Translations under genes and position numbers: made by a program
Notes under the pieces: model-generated
What the model saw: the letters and a program-made list of their open reading frames with translations, nothing else
Databases searched by the model: none
What the model was told of the DNA's origin: nothing
Assembly (NCBI GenBank): GCA_023653115.1
Contig: JAMNXO010000002.1
Span: forward strand, 186,001-250,000
Origin: Erythrobacter sp.
GTDB lineage: Bacteria; Pseudomonadota; Alphaproteobacteria; Sphingomonadales; Sphingomonadaceae
Direction of reading: 5' to 3'
Length of the DNA stretch: 64,000 nucleotides
Shown: positions 17,053 through 54,126 of the stretch, in pieces
Layout: every line of letters starts with the position of its first letter
Numbering within the stretch: position 1 is the first letter of the stretch

Positions 17053-18275
17053 GCCGCGCGCTCGAACACCGCCGCGATGCCCTGACCGCCGCCGATGCAC
17101 ATCGTCTCGAGCCCGTAGCGCACCCCGCGCCGGTGCATTTCATGCGCCATGTCGGCGAGGATACGCCCGCCGGTCGCGCCGATGGGATGGCCAAGGCTGA
17201 TGCCGGAGCCATTGACGTTGAGCATCTCGCGGCGGCTGTCGTCCTCGCTCCAGCCCCAGCCCTTGAGCACGGCGAGCACCTGCGGCGCGAAAGCCTCGTT
17301 GAGTTCGACGAGGCCGATATCGTCCCAGCTATACCCGCGCCGGGCGAACAGGCGCTCTACAGCAGGCACCGGACCGATGCCCATGCGCGACGGATCGCAG
17401 CCCGCCGCGGCCCAGCCGCCGAACCACAGCATCGGGGTGAGGCCGAGTTCTTCCAGCTTGTCCTCCGCCACCACCAGACAGGCGGCGGCAGCATCATTCT
17501 GCTGGCTGGCGTTGCCCGCGGTGACGATCGCTTGCGGATCGCGCTTTCCGTCGATTGCGGCGAGTTTGCCGAGTGTCTCCATCGATGCGTCGGTGCGGTA
17601 GCCTTCATCGTGGTCGAACACCACCGGATCGCCCTTGCGCTGCGGGATAGCAACCGGCACCAATTGCGCGGCGAACTTGCCTTGCGCCCAGGCCTTCGCC
17701 GCATTCTGGTGCGAGCGCACCGCGAATTCATCTGCCGCCTCGCGCGTGATGCCGTAATCCTTGGCGAGGTTCTCGGCGGTCTCGATCATGCCGGTGATCA
17801 CCCCGAAGCGTTCGACCGGCTGGCTCATCACCCGCCCCCGGCTGAGGCGATCATGCAGCACCATATCGCCCATCCGCACGCCGCCGCGCGCGGCCAGCGT
17901 GTAGTGCTCGACATTGGACATCGATTCGACCCCGCCGGCGACCACGACATCGGCCATCCCGGTCTCGACCATCATCGCCGCCGTTGCCACCGCCTGCACG
18001 CCCGATCCGCAGCGGCGATCAAGCTGGAAGCCGGGAACTTCAATCGGCAGGCCTGCCGCAAGCCAGCTCCAGTGGCCGATCGCGGGCGCTTCGCCATTGC
18101 CGTAGCCCTGGCTGAACACCACGTCGTCCACGCGCGCCGGATCAATCCCGCTGCGCTCCATCAGCGCCTTGAGGATCACCGCGCCCAATTGGCCCGCGTT
18201 GAGCCCCGAAAGCCCGCCGAGGAACTTGCCCACCGGCGTGCGCAAGGGGGTGCAGATAGCGGCGCGTCTGGTCAT
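17049..18275 (-). CDS. Acetyl-CoA C-acyltransferase (thiolase), CoA operon
   Basis: The 408-aa thiolase has its acyl-enzyme cysteine Cys89 in LDRRCGSGVQA, the histidine motif GHPIGATGGR and the C-terminal CIGGGQGIA. It overlaps its neighbours on both sides by 4 nt (ATGA with the CoA-transferase stop at 18272-18275, GTGA with the hydratase start), so the three genes are translated as a unit. It should thiolytically cleave a 3-ketoacyl-CoA formed by the operon's other enzymes. It differs in sequence from the thiolase at 3525-4706 and is not a recent duplicate of it. Confidence 0.9.
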   Translation of the reverse strand: MTRRAAICTPLRTPVGKFLGGLSGLNAGQLGAVILKALMERSGIDPARVDDVVFSQGYGNGEAPAIGHWSWLAAGLPIEVPGFQLDRRCGSGVQAVATAAMMVETGMADVVVAGGVESMSNVEHYTLAARGGVRMGDMVLHDRLSRGRVMSQPVERFGVITGMIETAENLAKDYGITREAADEFAVRSHQNAAKAWAQGKFAAQLVPVAIPQRKGDPVVFDHDEGYRTDASMETLGKLAAIDGKRDPQAIVTAGNASQQNDAAAACLVVAEDKLEELGLTPMLWFGGWAAAGCDPSRMGIGPVPAVERLFARRGYSWDDIGLVELNEAFAPQVLAVLKGWGWSEDDSRREMLNVNGSGISLGHPIGATGGRILADMAHEMHRRGVRYGLETMCIGGGQGIAAVFERAA

Positions 18276-19516
18276 GTCCTGTCCCTGTTTCGATTAGCGT
18301 CACTCAATGCCACGGTGCCCGCATCGACCAACCGGCCGATTTCGCCTGACGACAGGCCGAGCCGCTCCGCGAGCACTTCCTCGGAATGTTCACCCAGAAA
18401 AGGCGCAGGCCGGGGATCGCCCGCTTCGCGCCCCGGCAGGTTGGCAAAGCTGCGGGTGGCGGGATAGGCGAAGCCCGAAGGGTTGGCAGGCGAGGGGCCG
18501 AACAGTGGATTATCCGCCACCAGCACCGGATCATTGGCGGCCTCGTGCGCGGTGCGATAGCGTTCGAAGGTGCAGCCCTCGGCGGCCATGCGCGCGGCGA
18601 GGGTGTCGTAATCGAGCGTATCGGCCGCCTGCTGGAACAGCGCAAACAGGCGGGCGCGGTGCCGGAAGCGGGGGGTGTCCCCATCGGCAAAGCGCACGCC
18701 GAGTTCGGCTTCCAGAGCGGCCATGCCCTCGCCCACCCCGAAGGCTTTGACCAGCCCGCTCCACTGCTTGGGCGTGAGCGCGGCGACCATGAAGCGCGCG
18801 CCGTCACGGCTGCGGAAATCGCGCCCGAACGCGCCCCAGATCGCATTGCCGAGCCGCTCGCGGTCTGCCCCGCGATAGAGCATCTCCGCCATCGTCCCCG
18901 AGTTGGCGAGCGTGCCGATGGCGACATCGCCCAGCGGCACGCGCACCTCGCTGCCCTCGCCCGTGCGGCCCCGGTGATGGAGCGCGGCGAGCATCGCAAA
19001 GGCGCTGTAGGCTCCTGTGATGAAGTCCCATGCGGGCAGCACCTGATTGACCGGCGGCGCTGTCGCCGGGTCCCAATCCTCCGGCCCGCACATCAGCGGA
19101 TAGCCGGCCGCCGCGTTGACGGTGAAGTCCATCGCCTGGCGCCCATCGTGCCAGCCCATGATCCGCAAGGAGATCATGTCCGCGCGCTTGGCCGCCATGG
19201 CGGCATGGCTGAGAAAGCTTGCCTCGGGCAGGTTGGTGATGAGCTGGCCCGTTTTTGCCGCGAGCTCGGCGCACAATTCGCGCCCCTCTCCCGATTGCAG
19301 ATCGAGCGCGACCGATTTCTTGGCGCGGTTGAGGTTCTCCCACGAGAGCGAGCGGCCCTCGGCGTTGAGCATATAGCGGTTGTAATCGAGCCCGCCCGCC
19401 TTGTGATCGACGCGGATGACCTCCGCCCCCATCTGCGCGCAATACAGCCCGGCAGTGGGCGAGGCGACGAAGCTGGAAACTTCGATGATGCTCAGGTCAT
19501 TAAGGAGGTTGTACAT
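18272..19516 (-). CDS. Class III (CaiB/BaiF) CoA-transferase
   Basis: The 414-aa product is a family III CoA-transferase. The N-terminus DLSIIEVSSFVASPTAGLYC and the segment following it (GAEVIRVDHKAGG) match the family's nucleotide-fold start, and the aspartate acyl-carrier is expected in the central region near GAYSAFAMLAALHHRGRTGEG. It moves CoA from a donor thioester to a free acid, activating the substrate. The ATG at 19514-19516 lies 35 nt downstream (leftward) of a structured repeat element at 19551-19656 that separates it from the upstream acyl-CoA dehydrogenase. In this operon it is the likely substrate-activating step. Confidence 0.88.
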   Translation of the reverse strand: MYNLLNDLSIIEVSSFVASPTAGLYCAQMGAEVIRVDHKAGGLDYNRYMLNAEGRSLSWENLNRAKKSVALDLQSGEGRELCAELAAKTGQLITNLPEASFLSHAAMAAKRADMISLRIMGWHDGRQAMDFTVNAAAGYPLMCGPEDWDPATAPPVNQVLPAWDFITGAYSAFAMLAALHHRGRTGEGSEVRVPLGDVAIGTLANSGTMAEMLYRGADRERLGNAIWGAFGRDFRSRDGARFMVAALTPKQWSGLVKAFGVGEGMAALEAELGVRFADGDTPRFRHRARLFALFQQAADTLDYDTLAARMAAEGCTFERYRTAHEAANDPVLVADNPLFGPSPANPSGFAYPATRSFANLPGREAGDPRPAPFLGEHSEEVLAERLGLSSGEIGRLVDAGTVALSDANRNRDRT

Positions 19517-19550
19517 CTGATCGGAAACCTATCGTGCTTGCCGCTGGGAA

Positions 19551-19656
19551 CGGCTCGTTTGCGAGCCGCAAGGGCGCCAGAGTGCTCCGGCGCCCGCCCG
19601 CAGCGATGCGACCTTCAGGTCGCATGAGCGAGGATTTCGCACGCCGAAGGGCGTGC
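19551..19656 (-). repeat. Four-hairpin intergenic element, copy A
   Basis: Read on the - strand: hairpin I 19656-19639 (7-bp stem GCACGCC), linker GAAATCCTCGCTC, hairpin II 19625-19606 (8-bp ATGCGACC), linker of GCTGCGGGC type, hairpin III 19595-19572 (7-bp GGGCGCC), CTTG-type linker, hairpin IV 19568-19551 (7-bp CGGCTCG, loop 4). It starts 6 nt after the acyl-CoA dehydrogenase stop and ends 34 nt before the CoA-transferase start, so it lies inside an operon. The linkers recur in copies B, C and D while the stems differ. Confidence 0.85.
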
Positions 19657-19662
19657 GGAAAA

Positions 19663-20862
19663 TCAAGAATCCCTCCATTCGCGCAGCATGTGCTTGGCGA
19701 TCTGGAGCTGGAGGATCTGCGTGGTGCCTTCGTAAATGCGGTAGATGCGCGCATCGCGGAAGAAGCGTTCGGCGTCGTATTCGGCCAGATACCCGGCTCC
19801 GCCATAGATCTGCACCACGCGGTCAACCACGCGGCCGCACATCTCGCTGGCGAACACCTTGAAGGCGGCGGCTTTGACGAGGATGTTCTCGCCGGCATCG
19901 GCCCGCGCGGTGACATCGCGCATCATGCTTTCGGCCGCGTAGATCTCGATCTCGCTATCCGCGAGCATTTGCTGGATCAGCTGGAAATTGGCGATCGGCT
20001 CGCCAAACGCCTTGCGTTCATTGGCGTAGCGCAGCGCGGAATCGAGCGCACGGCGGGCATATCCGGTCGCCGCCGCGCCGACCGAGATGCGGCCATTGTC
20101 GAGGCTCTTCATCGCGAACACGAAGCCCTTGCCGGTTTCCCCGCCGAGCAGCGCATCACCTGGCACGCGCACATCATCGAGCATGATATCCGAGATATGC
20201 GAGCCGCTTTGGCCCATCTTCTTGTCCGGGCTGCCGGTTGAAACGCCCGGCGCGTTCATCGGCACGAGGAAGGCGGAAACGTGGGCGTTCTTGGGCAGCG
20301 CTTCCTTGCTGGTGCGGGCCATGATCAGCGCGACATCGGCGTGGGGGGCGTTGGTGATGTAGCGCTTGGTGCCGTTAAGGATCCAGCCATTGCCGTCGGG
20401 ATCAGGCACGGCGGTGGTCTGAAGTCCGGCCGAATCGCTCCCCGAGCCCGGCTCGGTCAGGCCGAAACAGGCGATCTTGCCTTCTGCGAGCTTGGGGAAC
20501 CACTCGGCGCGCTGGGCCTCGGTGGCGCCGTTCTTGAGCGCGCTGGCAAACATCCCGACATTGATCGAGAAGATCGAGCGATAGGCGGGCGCGGCGTAGC
20601 TCATGATGTTCACCACGCGGGCATATTGCGTCATGTTGAGCCCCGCGCCGCCATATTCCTGCGGCACCGAAAGGCCGAACAGCCCCATGTCGCGCATCTC
20701 GGCGAGGATTTCGGCCGGCACGCGGTCCTCGGCGATCACCTGCGGTTCGGCCGGGATCAGACGCTCGCGCACATAGCGCTGGAGCTGCTCGGCGAACTGC
20801 TCGAAAATGTCCTCGTCCATGCCCGGGTTGCGGGCGGGGGCAATCGCGGATGCGGCATTCAT
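19663..20862 (-). CDS. Acyl-CoA dehydrogenase
   Basis: The 399-aa FAD enzyme has the usual acyl-CoA dehydrogenase layout: all-alpha N-terminal domain, beta domain with CFGLTEPGSGSDSAG and YITNAPHADV, then the C-terminal helical domain with GRISVGAAATGYARRALD and IYEGTTQILQLQIAKHML. It oxidises an acyl-CoA to trans-2-enoyl-CoA, passing electrons to ETF. The ATG at 20860-20862 is preceded by AAGGA. It is the first gene of the leftward CoA operon. The glutamate in IYEGT-type sequence suits the isovaleryl/short-branched group, but base placement needs a structure-based alignment. Confidence 0.9.
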   Translation of the reverse strand: MNAASAIAPARNPGMDEDIFEQFAEQLQRYVRERLIPAEPQVIAEDRVPAEILAEMRDMGLFGLSVPQEYGGAGLNMTQYARVVNIMSYAAPAYRSIFSINVGMFASALKNGATEAQRAEWFPKLAEGKIACFGLTEPGSGSDSAGLQTTAVPDPDGNGWILNGTKRYITNAPHADVALIMARTSKEALPKNAHVSAFLVPMNAPGVSTGSPDKKMGQSGSHISDIMLDDVRVPGDALLGGETGKGFVFAMKSLDNGRISVGAAATGYARRALDSALRYANERKAFGEPIANFQLIQQMLADSEIEIYAAESMMRDVTARADAGENILVKAAAFKVFASEMCGRVVDRVVQIYGGAGYLAEYDAERFFRDARIYRIYEGTTQILQLQIAKHMLREWRDS

Positions 20863-20933
20863 GGTGGTCGTGGTCCTTGGCGGGCGGCTCTGCACGGTGG
20901 GCAGAGCGCGGGTCTTCACGGGGTCGGGCGCGG

Positions 20934-22548: not shown

Positions 22549-23573
22549 ACCAGCAAATGCCCCGAGCGGTCGCGCTTGGTCGCGAGATAGCGGGCGTTGT
22601 GCGGGTTTTCGGGGAGCTGGTGGGGCACCCGTTCGCTGACCGTGATGCCCGCCGCCGATAGCGCTGCGACCTTGGCCGGGTTGTTGGTCAGCAGGCGGAT
22701 TTGCCCTGCGCCCAGCAGTTCGAGCATCCGCGCCGCCACCGGAAAATCGCGGGCCTCGTCAGGCAGGCCCAAGCGCTGGTTGGCCTCGACCGTATCGAAC
22801 CCCTGATCCTGCAAGCGATAGGCGCGCAGCTTGTTGACGAGGCCGATCCCGCGCCCCTCCTGCCGCATATAGAGCAATACGCCCCAGCCGCCGGACTCGG
22901 CCGCCTCGTGCGCCATGGCGTGGAGCGCGGCGTCCAGTTGCGGGCCGCAATCGCATTTGAGGCTGCCGAGGATGTCCCCCGTCAGACACTCGGAATGGAG
23001 CCGGACGAGCGGTTGGCGGTCGCCCGATTGGGTGCCGATGATCAGCGCCACGTGCTCGCGCAGGTCAGCCGACGAGCGGAAGGCGACAATCTCCGCGTCC
23101 TCTGCGGCGGAAACCGGCAGGCGCGCGCGGGTGATGATGCGCAAGGCGCCCGCGTCAGCATAGGCAGCCAGATCGTTTGCCGCGACCGGCACCGCCTCGC
23201 CCGCCCCTTCGGGATCGACCAGAAACGCGGGCAGGATCCCGGCAATTCGCGCCAGTTCCAAGGCCGCTGCTGCGGTCTCGGCCCAATCGAGGCCCATCGC
23301 CTTGAACGGGCCTTTCAGCGGATTGCCGAGATCGAGCGCCGGATCGGCAATCGGCAGGGCATCGCGCAAGTTGAAATCCTCGCCGCCCGCGATCAGCACC
23401 GGGGCGTGCGGCACGGCAGCCTCGCGCTGGTTGGCAAGCTTCAGGGTGGCGGCGCGCGCGGCGGAAATCAGCATCCGCTGGGCGGTGGCCCCCTGTGCAA
23501 TTGCGGTCTCGACGGGAAGCAACACCGGCCCACCATCAAACGCCAGCGGCCAGCCGTGGCGCAATGCGTCCAC
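22545..23573 (-). CDS. ribA: GTP cyclohydrolase II
   Basis: The C-terminal roughly 200 residues are a GTP cyclohydrolase II domain: the zinc cysteines lie in HSECLTGDILGSLKCDCG and the catalytic arginine region is MRQEGRGIGL. It makes the first committed riboflavin intermediate from GTP. The N-terminal roughly 130 residues resemble a degenerate 3,4-dihydroxy-2-butanone-4-phosphate synthase domain, as is common in alphaproteobacterial RibA. The start is uncertain: the GTG at 23571-23573 gives 342 aa beginning at VDALRHGWPLAFDGG, 38 nt after the xthA stop. The frame is open further upstream only inside xthA. Confidence 0.85.
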   Translation of the reverse strand: MDALRHGWPLAFDGGPVLLPVETAIAQGATAQRMLISAARAATLKLANQREAAVPHAPVLIAGGEDFNLRDALPIADPALDLGNPLKGPFKAMGLDWAETAAAALELARIAGILPAFLVDPEGAGEAVPVAANDLAAYADAGALRIITRARLPVSAAEDAEIVAFRSSADLREHVALIIGTQSGDRQPLVRLHSECLTGDILGSLKCDCGPQLDAALHAMAHEAAESGGWGVLLYMRQEGRGIGLVNKLRAYRLQDQGFDTVEANQRLGLPDEARDFPVAARMLELLGAGQIRLLTNNPAKVAALSAAGITVSERVPHQLPENPHNARYLATKRDRSGHLLV

Positions 23574-23611
23574 CGCCTGCGCGGCGCGGCGTGCGGGGGA
23601 TGGCGCGCCGC

Positions 23612-24400
23612 TCAGAGATCGAACTCCGTGATCAGCGGCACGTGATCGGACGGCTGCTCCCACGCCCGCGCGCCTTCGAGCACGCGGTGCGCGGTCGCCT
23701 GCTTCGCCAGCGCAGGCGAGGCCCACATATGATCGAGCCGGCGGCCCTTGTCGTTCTCCTGCCAGGCCGGATTGCGATAGCTCCACCAGGAGTAATAGCG
23801 CGCCGGGTGCGGGATATGCTGCCGCCCGAGATCGACCCATTCGTGCGCCTGTTGGAACTGGCCCAGCGTCTCGACCTCGATCGGCGTATGGCTGACGACC
23901 TTGAGCAGCTGCTTGTGGCTCCACACGTCGCTTTCCAGCGGGGCGATGTTGAAATCACCAACGATCAGCGTGGGCTTGTCGAGCGTCTCGGCCCACTGCG
24001 TCATCCGCGCGAGGAAATCGAGCTTCTGCCCGAATTTGGGGTTCACTTCGCGATCCGGCACGTCGCCGCCTGCGGGGACATAGACGTTCTCGACCACCAT
24101 ATCCTTGCCCAGCACCTCGACCCCGATGTGCCGCGCCTCGCCATTGTTCTGCCAATCATGGCGCGCGACTTCGCGGATCGGCACGCGGCTGACCGTGGCG
24201 ACCCCGTGATAGCCCTTCTGCCCGCTCACCGCCTGATGGGTGTAGCCCAGCGCCGCCAGCGCCTCGGCCGGGAACAGGTGGCTCTCGCACTTGATCTCCT
24301 GCAGGCACAGGATGTCGGGCGCGGCCTCGGTGAGCAGCTTTTCGATCAGGCCCACGCGCAGGCGGGCCGAGTTGATGTTCCAGGTGGCGACAGAGATCAT
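23612..24400 (-). CDS. xthA: Exodeoxyribonuclease III
   Basis: The 262-aa enzyme has the EEP nuclease motifs: WNINSARLR at the N-terminus, LQEIKCE with the metal-binding glutamate, GDFNIAPLESDVW, and the C-terminal RLDHMWAS and SDHVPLITEF with the catalytic Asp-His pair. It cleaves apurinic sites and removes 3' blocking groups in base excision repair. Length is normal. It precedes ribA in the leftward direction and is divergent from the alkaline phosphatase gene, sharing a 135-nt intergenic region that holds a Pho-box candidate and a short dispersed repeat. Confidence 0.93.
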   Translation of the reverse strand: MISVATWNINSARLRVGLIEKLLTEAAPDILCLQEIKCESHLFPAEALAALGYTHQAVSGQKGYHGVATVSRVPIREVARHDWQNNGEARHIGVEVLGKDMVVENVYVPAGGDVPDREVNPKFGQKLDFLARMTQWAETLDKPTLIVGDFNIAPLESDVWSHKQLLKVVSHTPIEVETLGQFQQAHEWVDLGRQHIPHPARYYSWWSYRNPAWQENDKGRRLDHMWASPALAKQATAHRVLEGARAWEQPSDHVPLITEFDL

Positions 24401-24435
24401 GGGGGCGGACTTAGGGGGGTGCGGGCCGAAAATCT

Positions 24436-24462
24436 ACCGTCCTCAAGTAGCGGAGCGGCAGG
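24436..24462 (+). repeat. Short dispersed repeat (CCTCAAGTAGCG type), copy 1
   Basis: A 27-nt sequence with core CCTCAAGTAGCGGAGCGG that recurs at 51477-51503 (same orientation) and 40281-40307 (inverted), about 23 of 27 bases being identical in each comparison. It lies between xthA and the alkaline phosphatase gene. Confidence 0.6.
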
Positions 24463-24474
24463 GCAGCAAAGACG

Positions 24475-24492
24475 CTTTCACTTTATTGTCGC
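24475..24492 (+). promoter_or_regulatory. Pho-box-like direct repeat upstream of alkaline phosphatase
   Basis: CTTTCAC (24475-24481), four bases, TTGTCGC (24486-24492): the 7-4-7 spacing of a PhoB half-site pair, with two and three mismatches to CTGTCAT. It ends 43 nt before the ATG. It is weak alone but supported by the better box at the same distance before pstS. Confidence 0.35.
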
Positions 24493-24535
24493 ATGGCCGC
24501 GCGATAGGGCGGGGCAACCTCACCGGAGCCCTACC

Positions 24536-25918
24536 ATGACCCGCACCCTCTTTGCCGCCCTCCTGCTCACCAGCGCCGCCATGCCTGCTCTGGCCGAGGA
24601 CGCGCCTGCTGAACCGAAGGCCAAGAACGTCATCCTGTTCATCGGCGACGGCATGGGCATCTCCACCATCACCGCGGCACGCATCTACGAAGCGCAGAAG
24701 CGCGGCGAGACGGGCGAGGAGAACCAGCTCAGCTTCGAGAAATTCCCGAACGTGGCGCTGGTCAAAACCTACAACACCAATGCGCAGGTGCCCGATAGCG
24801 CCGGCACCGCGACTGCGATGCATTCGGGTGTGAAGACCCGCATCGGGGTGCTCGGCATCGGGCCGGACGCGGAAAAGGGCGTGTGCAAGGGTGCGCTGGC
24901 GAATCCGCTGCCGCTGCTGGGCGAGGAAGTGAAGCAGCGCGGGCTGGCATTGGGGATCGTTACCACCACACGGATCACGCACGCCACCCCCGCCAGTGTC
25001 TATTCGCGCTCGGCTGACCGCGACTGGGAGGCGGACACCAACATCCCCGCCGATCAGCAGCATGGCTGCAAGGATATCGCGTTGCAGCTAGCGGAAAGCC
25101 GGTTCGACCTCGCGCTCGGCGGCGGCACGGCGATGTTCTACGGCAAGAACGGCGGTGGCCGCCGCGCCGATGCGGCGGCGGACTTGCCTGCCGCATGGGC
25201 CGCGAAGAACGGCGGCGTGGTGGTGAAGGATGCCGCTGCGCTGTGGGCCGCGCCGATGGACAAGCCGGTGCTCGGGCTGTTCAACCCCAGCCACATGAAC
25301 TTCATGGCGGAGCGCAAGTCCGATTCCGCCGAACCGACGCTGACCGACATGACCGCGGTTGCGATCGCGCGGCTGAAGGCCGATCCTGATGGCTTTTACC
25401 TGATGGTTGAAGGCGGGCGGATCGATCACGCGCACCATGCGGGGCAGGCCGGTTTCGCGCTGGAGGAAGCAGCCGAGTTTGCGCGCGCGGTGCAATATGC
25501 GGTCGATAACACCGATCCCGCCGAGACGCTGATTTTGGTCACCGCCGATCACAGCCACGTGTTCACCATCGCTGGCTATCCGCAGCGCGGGAACGACATT
25601 CTCGGGCTGGTGGTGCCACCGGCGGGGCGCGGCGAGGATGGCGGCGATGGCAGCACCCCGGCGCTCGCGGCCGACGGCAAGCCCTACACCACGCTCGGCT
25701 ATGCCAATGGCCCGGGCGCGGTGAGCGGCGAGCGGCCCCTGCCGCAGACCGGCATCGCCGCGCGCCAGCAGTCGCTGGTGCCCACAGGCGCCGAAACCCA
25801 TGGCGGCGAAGATGTCGCCCTGTTCGCGACCGGCCCCGGCGCGGATCGTGCGCGCGGGGTGATCGAGCAGAACCTGATCTACAACATCATCCGCAAGGCG
25901 CTGGGTTGGGAAGAGTAG
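24536..25918 (+). CDS. phoA: Alkaline phosphatase (PhoA family)
   Basis: The 460-aa protein has a signal peptide (residues 1-20, MPALA then EDAP) and the alkaline phosphatase core: the metal-binding Asp38 in LFIGDGMG, nucleophile Ser88 in QVPDSAGTATA, the histidine/aspartate metal ligands in EGGRIDHAHHAG and VTADHSHVF, and a late histidine in AETHGGEDV. It hydrolyses phosphate monoesters in the periplasm to release phosphate. The ATG at 24536 follows CACCGGAG. The gene is probably induced by phosphate starvation through the Pho-box-like site upstream. It is not in an operon. Confidence 0.92.
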   Translation: MTRTLFAALLLTSAAMPALAEDAPAEPKAKNVILFIGDGMGISTITAARIYEAQKRGETGEENQLSFEKFPNVALVKTYNTNAQVPDSAGTATAMHSGVKTRIGVLGIGPDAEKGVCKGALANPLPLLGEEVKQRGLALGIVTTTRITHATPASVYSRSADRDWEADTNIPADQQHGCKDIALQLAESRFDLALGGGTAMFYGKNGGGRRADAAADLPAAWAAKNGGVVVKDAAALWAAPMDKPVLGLFNPSHMNFMAERKSDSAEPTLTDMTAVAIARLKADPDGFYLMVEGGRIDHAHHAGQAGFALEEAAEFARAVQYAVDNTDPAETLILVTADHSHVFTIAGYPQRGNDILGLVVPPAGRGEDGGDGSTPALAADGKPYTTLGYANGPGAVSGERPLPQTGIAARQQSLVPTGAETHGGEDVALFATGPGADRARGVIEQNLIYNIIRKALGWEE

Positions 25919-25953
25919 GAGACGCCGCGCACGTTTGCGGGATGACGCTGAAA

Positions 25954-26046
25954 CGGTCGCGCAGCGACCGCAAGGCCGAATGGCCGCCCGCAGCGACGCG
26001 ACCGATAGGCCGCGTGAGCGAGGATTTCGCAGCCCGGAGGGGCTGC
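25954..26046 (-). repeat. Four-hairpin intergenic element, copy B
   Basis: Same plan as copy A. On the - strand: hairpin I 26046-26029 (GCAGCCC, loop CTCC), linker GAAATCCTCGCTC identical to copies A and C, hairpin II 26015-25996 (ACGCGGCC with GGTCGCGT, one G-U pair), linker GCTGCGGGC, hairpin III 25985-25974 (GGCC, 4 bp), CTTG, hairpin IV 25970-25954 (CGGTCGC, loop of 3). It lies between the convergent alkaline phosphatase and lolA genes, beyond the lolA-side terminator. Confidence 0.85.
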
Positions 26047-26059
26047 GGAACACAAAAAC

Positions 26060-26108
26060 TCCCCCAAAACACAAAAACCCTCGACCCGGGGGCGGTGGGT
26101 CGAGGGTT
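26060..26108 (-). terminator. Strong intrinsic terminator for leftward transcription (lolA side)
   Basis: A perfect 12-bp stem, 26076-26087 with 26097-26108, loop 9 nt. On the - strand the stem is followed by a long T-rich tract (26075-26060). It lies 175 nt past the lolA stop, so lolA mRNA has a long 3' region or a separate small transcript ends here. Confidence 0.85.
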
Positions 26109-26283: not shown

Positions 26284-26967
26284 TTATCCCGGGCGACGGG
26301 CCGAGCGGCGCGGGTCTTTGAAGGTGAAGGTGCTGTCGGCCACCGTCACGCCGTAGCGCTGATTCGACAGCTGAACGCGGGTGCGGTGATTCTGCGCATC
26401 GAGCGCGACCCAATGGGTCAGCTGCCAGCCGCCCGGCGCCGAGGGCTTGCGCACGAAAATCAGGTTGATCATCCCGAACTCGGGCTTCTTGGGGTCGCGC
26501 ACTTCAACGCTGATGACATCGGGGTTGCCCGTCGCGATCAGCTTGCCAAAGCGCTTCACATCGCGCTCGGGATCGAACAGCGCGCCCAGCGGCGAGTTGC
26601 TGATCGGCCAGCGTTCGACCTGGTTGACCTCGTAATCGACCACGAACAGCGACTTGCCATTGGAGATCACGAGGAAGTCCGAATTCTTGCCATAATCGAA
26701 GCGGATCTTGCCCGGGCGCTTCAGCGTCATCACCCCGGCTGCGACATTGCCGGCGCGGTCGGTCTGGGTGAAATCGGCGCGCATGGTCGAGATCGCGCGC
26801 AGGGCGCCCACCACGGCATCGAGCTGGCTGGCCGATTGCGCGGCAAGCGGGGCGGGGGCGAAGGCGGGGGCCAGCACAGGGGGCAGCGCCGGGGCAAGGC
26901 CAAGCGCAAGCGCTACGGCGCCAAGGCCGAGCAGCAAGGTGCGAGCGGAAACGGGATTTTTGATCAT
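26284..26967 (-). CDS. lolA: Outer-membrane lipoprotein carrier protein
   Basis: The 227-aa product has a long hydrophobic signal region (about residues 8-45, ending LAAQSASQ) and a LolA domain with the landmarks MRADFTQTDRAG, LKRPGKIRFDYG and NGKSLFVVDYEVNQ. LolA ferries lipoproteins across the periplasm from LolCDE to LolB. The ATG at 26965-26967 is my choice; the ribosome-binding site is weak and a GTG 18 nt upstream is possible. It is expected to be essential. FtsK, often near lolA in related genomes, is here 20 kb away. Confidence 0.85.
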   Translation of the reverse strand: MIKNPVSARTLLLGLGAVALALGLAPALPPVLAPAFAPAPLAAQSASQLDAVVGALRAISTMRADFTQTDRAGNVAAGVMTLKRPGKIRFDYGKNSDFLVISNGKSLFVVDYEVNQVERWPISNSPLGALFDPERDVKRFGKLIATGNPDVISVEVRDPKKPEFGMINLIFVRKPSAPGGWQLTHWVALDAQNHRTRVQLSNQRYGVTVADSTFTFKDPRRSARRPG

Positions 26968-27049
26968 GCCGATGCGGTTAGTCACGCCGGCTTGAACTGT
27001 CGATGAATTATCGCGCCCCGCCAGCGGCAGGGCGCGCGGTAAGCCCATC

Positions 27050-27217
27050 TTACTTGATCTTGGCTTCCTTGAATTCAACGTGCTTGCGCGCCACGGGATC
27101 ATACTTCCGGAAGCTCATCTTCTCGGTGATGTTGCGCGGGTTCTTCTTGGTCACGTAGAAGAAGCCGGTGCCTTCGCTCGAGACGAGGCGGATCTTCACG
27201 GTGGTGGGCTTCGCCAT
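27050..27217 (-). CDS. rpmG: 50S ribosomal protein L33
   Basis: A 55-aa product that starts [20 protein letters not shown], the standard alphaproteobacterial L33 sequence, and ends VEFKEAKIK. It has no zinc-binding cysteines, so it is the C-minus paralog form. The ATG at 27215-27217 has AGGAAA upstream. It is a component of the large ribosomal subunit. It lies 82 nt upstream of lolA on the same strand. Confidence 0.95.
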
Positions 27218-47637: not shown

Positions 47638-50061
47638 CTAAAGCGGGTTTCCGTCCCTGTCCCGATAGATCTCTCTGCGGCCGACGTGGTTGGACGGGCC
47701 GACGAGGCCATCTTCCTCCATCCGTTCGATCCATTTGGCCGCGGTGTTGTAGCCCACGCCCATCTGGCGCTGGAGCCAGCTTCCGCTCGCCTTCTGGTTC
47801 TCGATCACGATCTGGCAGGCCTGCCGGTATTTGCGCTCCTCCGGATTGTCGGAGGCGGTGAAATCGTCCTCGAAGCCGAAACCGCCATCCTCGGGTTCTT
47901 CGGTGACGGCATCGACATATTCGGGCGCGCCTTGCGAGCGCCAGAAATCGGCCACGGCCTCGACCTCTTCATCGCTGACAAACGGGCCGTGGACGCGCAC
48001 CATCGCACCGGTGTTGGGCTTGTAGAGCATATCGCCCTTGCCCAGCAGCTGTTCGGCGCCCTGTTCGCCCAGGATCGTGCGGCTGTCGATCCGGCTGGTC
48101 ACCTTGAAGCTGATGCGGGTCGGCAGGTTGGCCTTGATCACGCCGGTGATGACGTCGACCGAGGGGCGCTGGGTGGCCATGATGAGGTGGATACCCGCCG
48201 CACGGCTTTTCTGGCTGAGGCGCTGGATCAGCACTTCGATTTCCTTGCCGATGGTGACCATGAGGTCAGCCAGCTCGTCGACGATCAGCACGATCTGCGG
48301 CAGCGGCTGGTAATCGAGCTGTTCTTCCTCGAACAATTGCTCGCCGGTTTCGGGATCGAACCCGGTCTGCACCCGGCGGCCCAGCGGCTTGCCCTTGGCG
48401 ATCGCGGCGGAGACTTTCTCGTTGAACGAATGGATATTGCGCGAGGAGATCGCGCTCATCATCCGGTAGCGCCGCTCCATTTCCTCGACCGCCCATTTCA
48501 GCGCACGCACCGACTTGTGCGGCTCGGTCACCACTGGCGAGAGCAGATGCGGGATGTCGTCATAGGTCTTGAGTTCGAGCACCTTGGGATCGATCAGGAT
48601 CAGGCGCAGCTCGGCGGGCGTGAAGCGGTAGAGCAGCGAGAGCAGGATGACGTTGAGGCCCACCGACTTGCCCGATCCGGTGGTGCCCGCCACCAGCAAG
48701 TGCGGCATGGCGGCGAGATCGGCGATCACCGGCTCGCCCGCGATATCCTTGCCGAGAATGATCGGCAGGCGGCCCTTGGCATCGGCAAAATCGGCGCAGG
48801 CGGCGAGCTCTTTCAGCATCACCACCTGGCGATCCTGATTGGGCAATTCGATGCCCATCACGGTGCGCCCCGGAATCGGCGAGACGCGCGCGGAGATCGC
48901 GCTCATGTTGCGGGCGATGTCTTCGGCGAGGCCGATCACGCGGCTGGCCTTGATGCCGGGCGCAGGTTCGAGCTCGTACATCGTCACCACCGGGCCGGTG
49001 CGCACCGCGGTGATCTCGCCCTTCACATTGAAATCGTCGAGCACGTTTTCGAGCAGGCGGGCGTTGCGTTCGAGCGCGACCTTGTCGAGTTTGGGCGCCT
49101 TGTCGACCGGCGGTTCGGCGAGCAGTTCGAGGCTCGGTAGCTTGAAGGCAGCGAACATATCGCCCTGCGCGGTCTTGGCCGGCTGGGCGCGCTTGGGCGG
49201 GGCGGACGGATCGCTGATTTCGGGCGCGCGGCGCGGGCGTTCATCGATCACAGCAGGCGCGGCATCGCCCTTCATCGCACGGCGCGGACGCACGGCGGGG
49301 GCATCGTCATCTTCCTCGCCGGCAAAGGCGAGCGCGGGGGCCGCCTTGCGACCGGGCAGCGGCAGCCAGCGCAGCAAGCCGGCGAGCGAGCCGCCGCCGA
49401 GGAATTCGGGCAGGCTCATCAGCACCCGCCAGTCGATTGCAAAGATGCGGGTCAGCAGGCCGACCCCGGTGGCCAGACAGGCGAGCGCGGCGGCCAGGAT
49501 CACCCAGCCCTGCGCCTCGGCGCCGAAGCGCGCAGCCACCGCCTCGATCGCGCCTGCGCCGAGCAGGCCGGCAAGGCCGCCTGCCTGCGCCGGCAGGGTG
49601 CCGCCCGGCCCCTCGAACGCGAGCGCGAGCACGCTGGAAAGCAGGGTGATGGCGATCAGCAGCAGACCGGTGGGCAGCCACCACGGCGTGGTTTCGGGCG
49701 CATCGCCATTTTCGACATCGCGCCACAGCTTGCGCGCCGAGACATAGAGCAGCGGCAGCAGCAGCGCGCCGGGCAGGCCGAACATCAGCAGCACCCGGTC
49801 TGCCAGCCATGCCCCGCCAGCGCCCATCCAGTTGGCGACCTCGTCAGGCGCGGCGGCGGTGGAGGGGCTGGGATCGGTCTGGGTGTAGCTTACCAGCGCC
49901 AGCGCGAGCACAATCGTCGCGCCCAGCAGCGCGCCAGCGCCCACCATCTGCACCAGCCGCCGCAGCGAACGACGCAGGCCCGCGCGCCACTCGGCGTCCG
50001 TCTTGCTGACGGCGGTCTTGCGGGCAGACGTGTTTCGGGGCGTAACGGCGCGGCTGGCCAT
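47638..50061 (-). CDS. ftsK: DNA translocase FtsK
   Basis: The 807-aa protein has four hydrophobic segments (about 35-240), a Pro/Ala-rich linker, then the motor with Walker A AGTTGSGKSVGLN, Walker B IVLIVDELADLM and the C-terminal gamma winged-helix domain (QRQMGVGYNTAAKWIERME). It pumps DNA at the division septum and helps resolve chromosome dimers. The linker is short compared with Escherichia coli FtsK, as usual in alphaproteobacteria. ATG at 50059-50061. The gap to the upstream leftward gene contains element copy C. Confidence 0.93.
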   Translation of the reverse strand: MASRAVTPRNTSARKTAVSKTDAEWRAGLRRSLRRLVQMVGAGALLGATIVLALALVSYTQTDPSPSTAAAPDEVANWMGAGGAWLADRVLLMFGLPGALLLPLLYVSARKLWRDVENGDAPETTPWWLPTGLLLIAITLLSSVLALAFEGPGGTLPAQAGGLAGLLGAGAIEAVAARFGAEAQGWVILAAALACLATGVGLLTRIFAIDWRVLMSLPEFLGGGSLAGLLRWLPLPGRKAAPALAFAGEEDDDAPAVRPRRAMKGDAAPAVIDERPRRAPEISDPSAPPKRAQPAKTAQGDMFAAFKLPSLELLAEPPVDKAPKLDKVALERNARLLENVLDDFNVKGEITAVRTGPVVTMYELEPAPGIKASRVIGLAEDIARNMSAISARVSPIPGRTVMGIELPNQDRQVVMLKELAACADFADAKGRLPIILGKDIAGEPVIADLAAMPHLLVAGTTGSGKSVGLNVILLSLLYRFTPAELRLILIDPKVLELKTYDDIPHLLSPVVTEPHKSVRALKWAVEEMERRYRMMSAISSRNIHSFNEKVSAAIAKGKPLGRRVQTGFDPETGEQLFEEEQLDYQPLPQIVLIVDELADLMVTIGKEIEVLIQRLSQKSRAAGIHLIMATQRPSVDVITGVIKANLPTRISFKVTSRIDSRTILGEQGAEQLLGKGDMLYKPNTGAMVRVHGPFVSDEEVEAVADFWRSQGAPEYVDAVTEEPEDGGFGFEDDFTASDNPEERKYRQACQIVIENQKASGSWLQRQMGVGYNTAAKWIERMEEDGLVGPSNHVGRREIYRDRDGNPL

Positions 50062-50154
50062 GGCGGATCTCCTGAGCGGAACACATCATGAATCCTAGCG
50101 CGACTCCGGTCAAGCGAAGTGCGACGGGGCGTTGGTTTCGCGGATGGCATTGAT

Positions 50155-50245
50155 CGGCCCGCAGGGCCGCAAGCCCGAACGGGCGCCCGCAGCGACGCGA
50201 CCTTCAGGTCGCATGAGCGAGGATTTCGCACGCCGGATGGCGTGC
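50155..50245 (-). repeat. Four-hairpin intergenic element, copy C
   Basis: On the - strand: hairpin I 50245-50228 (GCACGCC, loop ATCC), linker GAAATCCTCGCTC, hairpin II 50214-50195 (ATGCGACC with GGTCGCGT, one G-U pair), linker GCTGCGGGC, hairpin III 50184-50173 (GCCC with GGGC), linker CTTG, hairpin IV 50169-50155 (CGGCCC, loop 3). It begins 10 nt after the stop of the ThiE-like gene and lies 93 nt upstream of ftsK. Confidence 0.85.
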
Positions 50246-50255
50246 GGGACAAGAT

Positions 50256-50792
50256 TCAACTCAACCCGTCGATCGCCGCCCAATGCTGCCAGCATAGCGC
50301 GCGCGCGCATTCTGCCGTCATGCCGCCCAAAGCGATCACCGGCAGGCGAGATTGGCGCGCGAGCAGCCGGAACCGCACCGGGCCGAGCACTTTGGCGCCG
50401 GGATGCGAGTTGGTCGGGAACACCGGCGAAAGCAGCGCCGCGTCGGCTCCCAGCCTTGCGGCGAGGCCCAGTTCGGCCAGATCATGCGCGGTTGCCAGCT
50501 GCAGCAGCCTGGCGCGGCGCGGCGTGAGGCTGCGCGGGCTGCCATAGATCCCGTCCGCCCCCCATTCGCGCGCGGTCAGAGCGGAATCGGCGAGGATCAC
50601 GACATGGCCGCGTGCCTTGGCTAGGCGGCGCAGCTGGCGGAAGCGGGCGAAGCGTTCGGGATCGGGCAGGTGGTAATGGCGGTAGATGAATCCCGATCCG
50701 CGCGGCAATTGCGCCAGCGCAAGCGCCAGCCCGGCGTCATTGCGGGCATCGCTGATGAGCCACAGGGCGGGGAGGGGATTGGCGCGCGTCAC
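50256..50792 (-). CDS. Thiamine-phosphate-synthase/TenI-like TIM-barrel protein
   Basis: The 178-aa product has the ThiE/TenI plan: LPALWLISDARNDAG at the start, HVVILADSALTAREWGADGIYG, GADAALLSPVFPTNSHPGA and the phosphate-site loop VIALGGMTAECAR at the end. It is shorter than ThiE proper (about 205 aa), and a thiamine phosphate synthase role is uncertain; TenI-type isomerase is the alternative. The start is unclear: the GTG at 50790-50792 is preferred because family sequence begins there, but an ATG at 50814-50816 would overlap the divergent yggS start codon. Confidence 0.7.
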   Translation of the reverse strand: MTRANPLPALWLISDARNDAGLALALAQLPRGSGFIYRHYHLPDPERFARFRQLRRLAKARGHVVILADSALTAREWGADGIYGSPRSLTPRRARLLQLATAHDLAELGLAARLGADAALLSPVFPTNSHPGAKVLGPVRFRLLARQSRLPVIALGGMTAECARALCWQHWAAIDGLS

Positions 50793-50814
50793 CCACCCGC
50801 TATAGAGCGCGCCC

Positions 50815-51477
50815 ATGGAAAGTGCAGCCACCCGCCTCGCCGAAGTCCGCAGCAACATCGCCCGGGTGTGCAAACCCGCACGGCGCGAGCCTGCCGATGT
50901 CGCTCTGATTGCCGTCAGCAAGACCCAAGACGCCGCTGCCATCCAGCCGCTGATCGATGCCGGTCAGCGCGTGTTCGGCGAGAACCGGGTGCAGGAGGCG
51001 CAGGCCAAGTGGCCGGAATTGCGCGCCGCCCATCCCGATATCGAACTCCACCTGATCGGCCAGCTGCAATCGAACAAGGCGGAAGAGGCGGTGGCGCTGT
51101 TCGACTATATCCACGCGCTCGACCGTCCGAGCCTGCTCACCGCGCTGGCACGCGCGATGGACAAGGCGGGGCGGCGCGTGCCGTGCTTCGTGCAGGTCAA
51201 TATCGGCGACGAGCCGCAAAAGGGCGGCTGCCCGATTGTCGAGCTGCCCGCGTTTCTTGATGCGGTGCGCGCGGCGGATGTGCCGCTGGCCGGGCTGATG
51301 TGCATTCCGCCTGCCGACACCGAAGCAGCACCGTTCTTTGCGCTGCTGGCGAAGCTGGCGGCCGATCACGGGCTCACCGGCCTCAGCATGGGCATGAGCG
51401 GCGATTACGAGACTGCCGTGATGCTGGGCGCGACCCATGTGCGCGTCGGAACCGCGCTGTTCGGCAGCCGCGCATAA
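50815..51477 (+). CDS. yggS: YggS family PLP-binding protein (PLP homeostasis)
   Basis: The 220-aa single-domain PLP protein binds the cofactor through Lys36 in LIAVSKTQD. Other family landmarks are FGENRVQEA, HLIGQLQSNK, GLMCIPP and SMGMSGDYETAVMLGATHVRVG. It is not a catalytic enzyme in known cases but regulates PLP and amino-acid pools. The ATG at 50815 overlaps the possible start of the divergent ThiE-like gene. It is not in an operon on this side. Confidence 0.93.
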   Translation: MESAATRLAEVRSNIARVCKPARREPADVALIAVSKTQDAAAIQPLIDAGQRVFGENRVQEAQAKWPELRAAHPDIELHLIGQLQSNKAEEAVALFDYIHALDRPSLLTALARAMDKAGRRVPCFVQVNIGDEPQKGGCPIVELPAFLDAVRAADVPLAGLMCIPPADTEAAPFFALLAKLAADHGLTGLSMGMSGDYETAVMLGATHVRVGTALFGSRA

Positions 51478-51513: not shown

Positions 51514-51549
51514 AGGGCGCCCCGTTGCCGGAGCGCCCCTTGTTGTCTT
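51514..51549 (+). terminator. Terminator-like hairpin after yggS
   Basis: GGGCGC (51515-51520) pairs with GCGCCC (51533-51538), followed by a T-rich stretch (CTTGTTGTCTT). One unpaired C in the outer stem makes it imperfect. Confidence 0.55.
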
Positions 51550-51560
51550 ACCGCGAGCAT

Positions 51561-51654
51561 CGGTCGCGTAGCGACCGCAAGGCCAACCGGCCGCCCGCAG
51601 CGGGCGCAGCTTTGCTGCGCGTCTAGCGAGGACGATCGCCCGGAGGGGCGATCG
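51561..51654 (-). repeat. Four-hairpin intergenic element, copy D
   Basis: The most diverged copy. On the - strand: hairpin I 51654-51633 (CGATCGCCC, 9 bp, loop CTCC), linker with TCCTCGCT retained, hairpin II 51620-51604 (GCGCAGC, loop of 3), linker GCTGCGGGC, hairpin III 51592-51581 (GGCC), CTTG, hairpin IV 51577-51561 (CGGTCGC). It starts 12 nt after the stop of the second TonB receptor. Hairpins I and II have entirely different stem sequences from the other copies yet pair fully. Confidence 0.82.
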
Positions 51655-51666
51655 CCACATCAAACA

Positions 51667-54000
51667 TCAAAACTCAAACAGCGCTTCGATGCCGATGTTC
51701 CGGCCGCGCATCAGCGGGCTGAACGTGCCGAGCTGCGGATCCGGCGCAAACGGACGACGCACGCCGGTCGAGTTCGGGCCACCGAACGGCACCTGCGTGT
51801 CGCCACCTTCCTGCACTTCGTCGAGCAGGTTGCGGCCATAGACCGACAGCGACAGGCCATCCACCGGGGTTTCCCAGGTGATGTTGGCTTCGAGGTTCGA
51901 CAGCGCGTTGAGCCAGCCGAGGTTGTCGTCGGTGTAGGCGGCCTCGTCGCGATACTGGTAGTTCACGCGGGTGAGGAACTTGCTGCTGCCGACGTTGAGC
52001 TCGTGGATGAGGCCCATGCCCACCGTGATCGGGGGGACGCGCGGCAGGCTCAGCGCCAGGTCGGTGTCGTTGATGACCCCGTCGCCCGAGATGTCGAACA
52101 GCACCTCGTCATACTGGGCATCGATGATCCCGATATTGGCGGTGAAGGCGAGCGATTCCGACACGCGCATGCGCGCTTCGGCTTCGAAGCCGGTGATCGT
52201 CGCATCGGCGGTGTTGAGGATGTTCTGCACCACGCCCGCGCCCGGATCAGCCAGGTTCACTTCGCGCTGCATATTGCCGACCTTGGTGATGTAGGCAGCC
52301 GCATTGAGCGTGAGGGCACCGTCGGCAGTCTGGAACTTGCCGCCGATCTCGTAATTGTCGACCTTCTCTTCATCGAAGAACAGGTTGCCGGTTGCCGCAA
52401 AGGCGCGGTTGAACACGGCGACGTTGGTGATGCGGAAGTTGTAGCCGCCCGAACGGTAGCCACGGCTCCAGTGACCGTAGATCTGGCTGTCAGCAAATTC
52501 ATACTGCAGGCCGAGCTTGGGCGAGAGGTTGCGGAACCGCACGCGATCGGTGAAGCCGTTGGTTTCGGTCGCCGGGTTGAACGGGGTGGTGCCGGTCGGG
52601 CAGGTGCCCTGCAGCACCGAACAGGCTGCGCGCGGCAGGACATAGGTGACGCCCGCGTCCTTGGTTTCCTGGTTCCAGCGGATGCCCGCGATCACCGAGA
52701 GATTGTCGAACAGTTCGTACTGCGCGTTGGCGAACACGCCGATCACCTCGTGCTCCTGCGAACCGCCGCCGTAGAACACCGGCGGCTGGAGGTTGACCGG
52801 CAGGTCGCGCCGCAGCTCGCGGTTTTCGGTGTAGGCGAGATCCTGCTGGAACCAGAACCCGCCGAAGGTCAGATCGAGCCGGTCGGTCGAGATCGCGTAG
52901 CGCAATTCGTTCGAGAACTGCTCCTGCGCGGTTTCGGTGCTCGAGTGGAACAGGAAACGCGGGGTCGCATCGATGTCGCCGCGGGTGGTGGCGTCATACT
53001 GGCGCCAGCCGAACACGTTGGTGAGCGTGCCTGCGCCGATATCGAGGGTCGCGGTGAGCGAGCCGGTCCAGATTTCGTTGGAATAGCTGCCCGGCTCGTC
53101 GATAGCGAAGTCGAAGCTGTTGCGATCGAAGAACGCGCGGTTCTGGGCCGAGGGACCATCGCCTTCGCTCTCGAAATAGTCGAGCTTGCCGAGCAGGGTG
53201 AGGCCGCCGAGACGGGCTTCGAGCGCGCCGCGCAGGATCTTGGTTTCCGCAGCCCCGTGGTTCGAATTGTCGAACAGGTTGGTGAAGTAGCCTTCGTCCT
53301 TGTTGTAATAGGCGCCGACCTTGAACAGCAGCACGTCTTCGACAATCGGGCCGGAGATCACGCCGCTGACGGTGTAGTTGGGGCCGCCGCGGCCGCCATC
53401 GAGCGCCGGACCGTCAACCGCCGCGCGGAACTTGCCGCGGAAGTCTTCGGTAGGGTTGCCGGTGTTGATCACCACCGCGCCGCCGGTGACGTTGCGGCCG
53501 AACAGCACGCCCTGCGGGCCGCGCAGGATTTCGACGCTGTCGAGGTCGAACAGATCGAACACCACGCCGCCGTTGATGCCGAGATAGACGCCATCAACGA
53601 ACACGCCGACGGTCGGGTCGATCGAGGGGATCGAGGAGTTGATGCCGAGGCCGCGGACGGTGAAGTTGGCAGTGCCGCGGCTGGTGCCGACCTGATCGAG
53701 GCTGACAGTCGGAGCCTGGAACGAAAGGCCCGAGATGTCGCGGATCTTGTAGGCTTCAAGCGTGCCGGCGTTGAACGCGGTCACAGCCAGCGGCACGTCC
53801 TGCACGTTTTCGGCGTCGCGGGTCTTGGTGCCGGTAACGAGGATCTCGTTGATCGCATCGAGCGTGCTGGTGGGTTCTTCCTGCACGGGCGCATCGGAAT
53901 CCTGGGCGAAAGCGGCGACGGGGGTGAGGGTTGCCGTGCCCAGCATAAGGGCAAGCTTGCCGAGCCGGAGGGGGCTCCGCATGGGGGTTGCGGTGTTCAT
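51667..54000 (-). CDS. TonB-dependent outer-membrane receptor 2
   Basis: The 777-aa receptor has a signal peptide (about 1-32, VAAFAQ), plug domain with ILVTGTKTRDAENVQDVPLAVTA-type start and SVEILRGPQGVLFGRNVTGG, and a barrel ending in GIEALFEF. The ATG at 53998-54000 follows AGGGAGAG. Its stop is 12 nt from element copy D. It is only distantly like receptor 1 and belongs to the large sphingomonad group of receptors of unknown ligand. Its promoter must lie in 54001-54126. Confidence 0.9.
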   Translation of the reverse strand: MNTATPMRSPLRLGKLALMLGTATLTPVAAFAQDSDAPVQEEPTSTLDAINEILVTGTKTRDAENVQDVPLAVTAFNAGTLEAYKIRDISGLSFQAPTVSLDQVGTSRGTANFTVRGLGINSSIPSIDPTVGVFVDGVYLGINGGVVFDLFDLDSVEILRGPQGVLFGRNVTGGAVVINTGNPTEDFRGKFRAAVDGPALDGGRGGPNYTVSGVISGPIVEDVLLFKVGAYYNKDEGYFTNLFDNSNHGAAETKILRGALEARLGGLTLLGKLDYFESEGDGPSAQNRAFFDRNSFDFAIDEPGSYSNEIWTGSLTATLDIGAGTLTNVFGWRQYDATTRGDIDATPRFLFHSSTETAQEQFSNELRYAISTDRLDLTFGGFWFQQDLAYTENRELRRDLPVNLQPPVFYGGGSQEHEVIGVFANAQYELFDNLSVIAGIRWNQETKDAGVTYVLPRAACSVLQGTCPTGTTPFNPATETNGFTDRVRFRNLSPKLGLQYEFADSQIYGHWSRGYRSGGYNFRITNVAVFNRAFAATGNLFFDEEKVDNYEIGGKFQTADGALTLNAAAYITKVGNMQREVNLADPGAGVVQNILNTADATITGFEAEARMRVSESLAFTANIGIIDAQYDEVLFDISGDGVINDTDLALSLPRVPPITVGMGLIHELNVGSSKFLTRVNYQYRDEAAYTDDNLGWLNALSNLEANITWETPVDGLSLSVYGRNLLDEVQEGGDTQVPFGGPNSTGVRRPFAPDPQLGTFSPLMRGRNIGIEALFEF

Positions 54001-54126
54001 GTTATAACTCTCCCTGAGTTGAGGGCCGCCCCAATAGCAATGCGTCACACAATTGCAACCTGTGGCGGCCGTGCGCTTGCGCTTGCAGGCGAGCCTGCAA
54101 GCATCTGTATCTCATGTATTTTGCAA

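Follow-up and report, generated by a model that had tools for sequence, protein, structure and literature searches.

The window analysed here, a stretch of 64 kb from a contig of Erythrobacter sp., contains four copies of a chain of four hairpins that, on the sequence comparisons below, probably represents a new REP/BIME-like family, made up of short, interspersed, non-coding elements whose hairpins are exchanged between copies. A first-pass annotation of the window had suggested either a structured RNA or a structured mobile repeat. The mobile repeat is favoured and the structured RNA loses ground, because orthologous sites are found filled, empty or differently filled, because G·U mispairs are about as frequent as A·C mispairs, and because whole hairpins are replaced in otherwise identical DNA.

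All four copies listed by that annotation were recovered in place, and they are read here on the minus strand. The type A unit is about 110 bases long and consists, in this orientation, of a T-rich leader with a consensus of about TTTTTGTGTTC, hairpin I, AAATCCTCGCTC, hairpin II, CGCTGCGGGC, hairpin III, TTG and hairpin IV, with stems of 8, 8, 4 and 7 bp and a loop in hairpin II that is often TGAA. The linkers previously described as conserved were present as GAAATCCTCGCTC in copies 1 to 3, GTCCTCGCTAG in copy 4, and GCTGCGGGC and CTTG in all four. The window contains 4 instances of the core pattern TCCTCGCT-N8..32-GCTGCGGGC, compared to 0.00 expected from 100 shuffles. R1, a covariance model trained on 15 copies in the same genome (copies 2 and 3 of the window included), detected each of the four (Table 1), and the next best match in the window scored 17.4 bits. 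The folding energies of the four copies yielded z values of -6.9, -3.5, -3.1 and -3.4 on the minus strand and of -4.5, -4.2, -2.6 and -3.4 on the plus strand relative to dinucleotide shuffles, and at most 1 in 200 shuffles reached an equal energy on either strand. A closing stem, CGCTG..CAGCG, around hairpins III-IV seemed plausible from the copies in the own genome but was dropped, since CAGCG is present in 16 of 84 tails versus 12 in a control segment taken from those copies.

Table 1. Copies of the four-hairpin element, their flanking genes and related loci. Positions refer to the window unless a locus is named.
Feature	Position	Strand	Remarks
Copy 1	19538..19670	-	R1 96 bits (match 19538-19659); long hairpin III
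CoA-transferase family III gene	18272..19516	-	Downstream of copy 1; Pfam PF02515
Acyl-CoA dehydrogenase gene	19663..20919	-	Upstream of copy 1; Pfam PF00441
Copy 2	25941..26060	-	Best-scoring; R1 122 bits (match 25941-26049)
Copy 2, leader TTTTTGTGTTC	~26060-26050		
Copy 2, hairpin I	26047-26028		
Copy 2, linker AAATCCTCGCTC	26027-26016		
Copy 2, hairpin II	26015-25996		
Copy 2, linker CGCTGCGGGC	25995-25986		
Copy 2, hairpin III	25985-25974		Followed by TTG
Copy 2, hairpin IV	25970-25954		
Alkaline phosphatase gene	23495..25918	+	Convergent with copy 2; Pfam PF00245
lolA-like gene	26284..27102	-	Its terminator precedes copy 2; Pfam PF03548
Copy 3	50142..50255	-	R1 108 bits (match 50142-50248); between thiE-like gene and ftsK
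ftsK gene	47638..50061	-	Downstream of copy 3; Pfam PF01580
thiE-like gene	50256..50942	-	Upstream of copy 3; Pfam PF02581
Copy 4	51548..51666	-	R1 65 bits (match 51548-51655); divergent subtype with stem I GGCGATCGCC and linker GTCCTCGCTAG
TonB-dependent receptor gene	51667..54048	-	Upstream of copy 4; Pfam PF00593
Type B repeat, examples	L184:2426-2560, L187:2424-2558, L210:940-1074 and others		
Type C repeat	L193, L194, L196, L198		lolA-phoA intergenic
Small ORF at thiE-like/ftsK site	L102, L104, L108, L110, L115, L116, L117, L119, L143, L298		

The genome that holds the window (2.40 Mb in 65 contigs, 86% complete) has 21 exact matches to the core pattern and 0 to the reversed pattern. In the same genome, where 150 out of 4788 candidates were scored, R1 gave 51 matches at E<=0.1. 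Of these, 44 are below 1e-5, and related repeat types are found among the weaker matches. The element thus has the many short palindromic intergenic copies per genome of REPs and BIMEs in the broad sense. Within the genus, represented by 114 genomes, R1 matches were present in all 37 genomes searched, with 4-49 in each, and G019 was matched only at 2.6e-6. Other families yielded a match in 2 of 24 genomes (61 genomes searched in all), and across the family 121 of 249 genomes had a match at E<=0.001 when 15 candidates were scored per genome. The covariance-model search of related genomes that the first-pass annotation had asked for therefore turned up many further copies. Its authoring model did not recognise a known family, and neither did Rfam, which gave 0 matches at gathering score in the window and 14 other loci. 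The titles and opening lines of abstracts that were searched contained no description of the four-hairpin element. Copy 2 had no match in collections of plasmid and phage records. The core pattern is contained in 25 IMG/VR viral contigs (L257-L281).

We examined the pairing in an alignment, A4, of 84 distinct rows in which identical copies are counted once and which, being fitted to R1, leans towards the structure. In this alignment 95.6% of 2189 cells are paired, and 26 of 27 pairs show changes in both arms. The covariation score of 0.462 compares with 0.128 +/- 0.007 for shuffled alignments (0 of 500 as high) and at most 0.053 with the arms slid. In a test anchored on the linkers, 249 of 280 cells in 35 distinct hairpin II segments were Watson-Crick pairs, compared to 209 +/- 4.5 in 1000 shuffles, the largest of which reached 226. 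Since the A4 covariation and the linker-anchored test agree, the pairing of the hairpins is real, and so is the joint change of both arms that had been noted from the four copies.

Turnover of the element was followed at orthologous gene junctions. For the copy 1 and lolA sites, the 114 genomes of the genus were searched, and the 30 best-matching places were made into loci and read. At the copy 1 junction, 17 of the 30 loci have type A, 6 have other inserts of 139-151 nt and 7 have only 2-11 nt; in relatives with the 2-nt form, the CoA-transferase gene overlaps the upstream acyl-CoA dehydrogenase gene. Most filled alleles place a stop codon inside a leader such as TTCTTGA, which is absent from the short alleles; this includes the window, where the leader of copy 1, TTCTTGATTTTC, contains the TGA of the upstream gene. 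On a flanking-gene tree with 7 of 27 inner branches well supported, the states of the site (A, other or short) changed at least 11 times, and well-supported sister pairs differ in state, as do L230 (A) and L255 (short) or L245 (A) and L246 (other). Because this tree is weakly resolved, some of the changes may represent allele exchange between species or deletion. The insert in L235 is bounded by GAATG on both sides, with other genomes having it on one side, as fragments or on neither, which is no more than suggestive of a 5-bp target duplication. The inserts of other kinds, each of about 140 nt, were seen in L253, L256, L252, L239, L244 and L246, and those in L253 and L256 have the leader TTCTTGAT in common with type A.

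A repeat of type A, B or C occupies the lolA site in 29 of the 30 loci, and one has none. By eye, 10 of these are type A (two of them, L201 and L203, called on model score alone), 10 type B, 8 type C alone and 1 type C with an A-like unit. Type B, reversed in two loci and short in one, combines a different 5' half with hairpins III-IV of type A; it runs from TTTTTGTTTGCGCCCTCAAGCGCCGGGCGC through a hairpin, GCTTGGC and a hairpin with an ATAA loop to the shared hairpins, and inspection by eye indicates a possible pseudoknot in its 5' part (pairing GCGCCC/GGGCGC and CAAGC/GCTTG). Type C, about 150 nt in length, has near-inverted ends, GTCCCGGCGGTTTA and TAAACCACCGGGAC, and occurs at the same lolA-phoA site as A and B, and type B was seen beside type C remnants in L185 and L190. 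In L221 (C27 of the window's own genome, near 242400), a repeat dimer, CGTCATTGCGAGCG..., is located between two type B elements; we take it to be a CGTC-type REP dimer.

Among 35 printed loci of the TonB site, 6 have a sense match between the stop codon and the native terminator and 1 has a reversed match, L101 being partly masked. Erythrobacter tepidarius DSM 10594 (L128) is one of the relatives with a copy at this site. Copy 4 likewise lies between the stop codon of the receptor gene and the terminator GGGGCGCTCCGG. The thiE-ftsK site is filled in L106 and L124 among 33 printed loci. At the position that copy 3 takes in the window, several relatives have a small ORF of about 60-70 codons upstream of ftsK, which presumably resembles a stand-alone FtsK gamma domain.

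These site comparisons allow a more specific picture, which we hold tentatively and consider possible rather than probable: a mobile class that would insert at the junction of a stop codon and the next gene, bring its own stop codon in the T-rich leader and maybe duplicate about 5 bp of the target. Its 3' half, hairpins III-IV, would be common to other 5' modules, and it would compete with unrelated repeats for slots at gene ends, so that the ends of bacterial genes would behave like exchangeable cassettes.

Gene context was assigned to the 84 distinct copies with a simple codon-score gene caller, which left 3 copies without an upstream gene call; since the set includes several orthologous copies from the lolA and TonB sites, figures for the window's own genome, based on the best 30 of 51 R1 matches, are given alongside. 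The upstream gene is in sense in 68 of 81 copies and antisense in 13 (binomial 4e-10, orthologous copies included); the corresponding numbers for the own genome alone are 23 and 6 of 29. Counting the 11-nt leader, the 5' end is located at -12 to +10 nt of the stop codon in 43 of the 68 sense copies (15 of 23 in the own genome) and in 2 of the 13 antisense copies, while for 21 of the 68 the distance exceeds 40 nt and reaches as much as 845 nt. Only 9 of 53 3' ends are equally near the stop codon of a facing gene. In 25 of the 84 copies a stop codon ends 5-12 nt within the leader, and 82 are not covered by any called ORF, where flanking ORFs may enter the element by up to 40 nt. The element thus shares the gene 3' end location of REPs in the broad sense, with the exception of the thiE-like site. 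A search with the ThiE-like protein of the window retrieved 80 loci from Erythrobacter, Porphyrobacter, Altererythrobacter, Qipengyuania and others, with 16 R1 matches; 9 of these are right behind the gene, 4 in sense and 5 reversed, the reversed ones scoring 24-54 bits.

The sense orientation and the position at stop codons also fit an RNA function. According to this alternative, the element is a functional 3'-UTR RNA with a fold under selection, whose four hairpins delay mRNA decay, hold up ribosomes at termination or separate the expression of adjacent genes. It would be in line with the high proportion of paired cells and with the elements between stop codon and terminator at the TonB site, and E. 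coli REPs located 15 nt or less from a stop codon are reported to stall ribosomes, in the parts of PMC12306157 compared here, which cite Liang 2015. Selection for RNA on one strand would be expected to leave more G·U than A·C on that strand, but the mispairs in A4 comprise 57 G·U and 62 A·C, unlike what is expected for RNA on one strand. The terminators at the ends of TonB genes in relatives differ in this respect, with 21 G·U and 0 A·C in 189 cells from 21 distinct terminators, which are related by descent and do not make 21 independent cases. This control was confined to the 3' end of the TonB gene, with bases unconstrained and the register set by Watson-Crick pairs (36 sequences, with no terminator found in 7), and its contrast to the element has a Fisher probability of 1.3e-6 over cells that are not independent. 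The lolA terminators, with 4 distinct arm pairs, have 1 G·U and 0 A·C.

Two other controls were run. A terminator pattern applied to whole loci gave 24 G·U versus 0 A·C in 23 distinct hairpins and is not relied on, because several of its pairs could not accept A·C and its use extended beyond the TonB gene. A crude set of 73 terminator-like hairpins had 52 G·U and 46 A·C, like random hairpins (2614 G·U versus 2680 A·C), which speaks against the contrast; we attribute the missing asymmetry to chance hairpins, and the contrast thus rests on one set of related terminators. Frequent G·T pairing has been taken as a sign of transcription for REPs, in the text of PMC3733652 compared here, and this sign is not seen in the four-hairpin element. 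A functional 3'-UTR RNA is also at odds with the many relatives in which the same sites are without the element or have other inserts in its place, and with its location at lolA, where copy 2 lies just beyond the terminator of the gene; we consider such a function unlikely. Under the reading as a REP-like mobile repeat, transcription is probable for copies that have a stop codon on one side and a terminator on the other, and such copies, by analogy with the E. coli REPs near stop codons described in the same parts of PMC12306157, may incidentally affect translation or mRNA decay.

A comparison of two close relatives, G365 and G378, whose aligned segments along a 154-kb contig share about 96-99% identity, is the one case in which a hairpin replacement was dissected. 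At one site their flanks are identical at 224 of 224 and 199 of 200 positions, and hairpin III differs, as do hairpin IV and the tail of the partner element. The tract in G365 matches at 32 of 33 bases that genome's own copy 1154 nt away, from which it was apparently copied, and in G378 it occurs at the second site only. Over the whole tail of 107-108 nt, the first site of G365 agrees about equally well with the first site of G378 (89/107) and with the second copy in G365 (88/108), which limits the replacement to a short tract. At the lolA site of the two genomes, type A in one stands against type C in the other, with type C followed by an apparent hairpin IV of an A unit. An insert of about 120 nt in G365 that is missing in G378 (L289:920-1160 versus L297), with the arms GTTCGTGCTGAGCTTGTCGAAGCAC and CCTTCGACAAGCTCAGGGCGAACGG, is another palindromic repeat.

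At the copy 1 site, the 17 orthologous copies have a covariation score of 0.228 versus 0.091 when shuffled (0 of 500 as high), with 9 pairs changed on both sides versus 6.1 (5 of 500) and 13 further pair types versus 12.6 (286 of 500). On the tree of this site, the type of stem I changed at least 7 times and that of stem II at least 4 times, often in the same rows. We conclude from these patterns that copies can trade complete hairpins and that the fixed linkers are likely to be the homology for it, where they would serve ectopic recombination or gene conversion that swaps the hairpins. The joint change of the two arms is then due, at least partly, to this exchange and not to stepwise compensation alone; stepwise compensation or arm-copying repair may contribute as well. 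Template-switch (quasipalindrome) repair, in which one arm is copied onto the other without recombination between copies, would by itself produce strand-symmetric mispairs as well as the many G-C/C-G alternatives with few intermediates that are found in the stems. It leaves unexplained that the replaced tract in G365 matches another copy and reaches beyond the stem, and that, at an orthologous site, changes in the type of stem I tend to coincide with those of stem II, and we regard it as a rather improbable account of the element.

The REP-like reading has against it that no mobilising enzyme was found in a search for the Y1 family. A search of the element's own genome (86% complete) for the Y1 transposase domain (PF01797; RAYT and IS200/605) gave no match, and the domain is present in 7 of 100 genomes of the genus, where the element is absent from all 10 loci examined among 14 Y1 matches. 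The possibility that the repeats are, or once were, mobilised by a RAYT in the manner of GTAG REPs would be consistent with their being intergenic palindromes with opposite-orientation pairs in the own genome, where the 3' ends of several paired copies face each other, and with places at gene 3' ends like those reported for REPs in the consulted parts of PMC3733652. Considering the scarcity of Y1 genes, their loci without the element and a consensus without GTAG, this possibility is very unlikely. The new sites would instead be filled by a trans-acting enzyme other than a Y1/RAYT transposase; a target duplication of about 5 bp, if there is one, would point to an enzyme of the cut-and-join kind and not to a Y1 enzyme acting on single strands. 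A rule by which each opposite-orientation copy belongs to one of two convergent genes is supported by gene calls at C33:70981/71086 and compatible with C30:46328, but it fails for C20:21555 and C30:64084 and was rejected.

Alpha-Proteobacterial CGTC REPs are reported without a transposase, and places at gene 3' ends, the supply of stop codons (by the ends of GTAG REPs) and dimers are reported for one or other REP group, in the parts of PMC3733652 compared here. Like the CGTC REPs in these descriptions, the element is small, palindromic and intergenic, lies near 3' ends, forms dimers, varies in its stems from unit to unit and has no dedicated transposase that we could find; hairpin II resembles CGTC-1 in its 8-bp stem, 4-nt loop and a first pair that is usually A-T. 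Unlike them, each unit has a T-rich leader and a set order of four distinct hairpins joined by constant linkers. CGTC REPs are defined by a CGTC, TGTC or CCTC tag, a stem of 8-9 bp with A-T at the first and second positions and a CCA tail, whereas stem II of the element has a GCTC tag, A-T as the first pair in 72 of 80 cases, T-A as the second in 8 of 79, and a CGC tail.

With GTAG REPs and BIMEs that are mobilised by RAYTs, the element shares a mosaic, hairpin-based and intergenic organisation with inverted pairs, but its linker and leader consensus is without the GTAG tag, and RAYTs were not found in its own genome and are few in the genus. MITEs and the RU elements of enterobacteria are, in the partial descriptions compared, also mobile intergenic sequences of 100-170 bp without transposase genes, but no terminal inverted repeat was seen in type A and the target duplication is suggestive and from one genome. 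A fixed four-hairpin unit with an exchangeable 5' module is absent from the REP descriptions in the compared parts of PMC3733652 and PMC12306157. That the element is itself an intrinsic terminator, as stable hairpins downstream of genes might suggest, is extremely improbable, as no T-run directly follows any hairpin in the printed copies, where a T-run instead precedes hairpin I, and separate terminators are present at the lolA and TonB sites.

The element therefore looks like an undescribed relative of REP repeats and not like a regulatory RNA, and it draws attention to how REP-like repeats may be mobilised in genomes where a search for RAYTs is negative. Strong base-pair covariation would here have arisen, at least partly, through the exchange of whole hairpins between dispersed copies, without the marks of selection on RNA from one strand, and such exchange would be a trap for the discovery of RNAs by covariation. 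The stop-codon sites that are filled or empty throughout the genus, including overlapping gene pairs that the element has separated, would make the effect of a gene-end repeat directly measurable.
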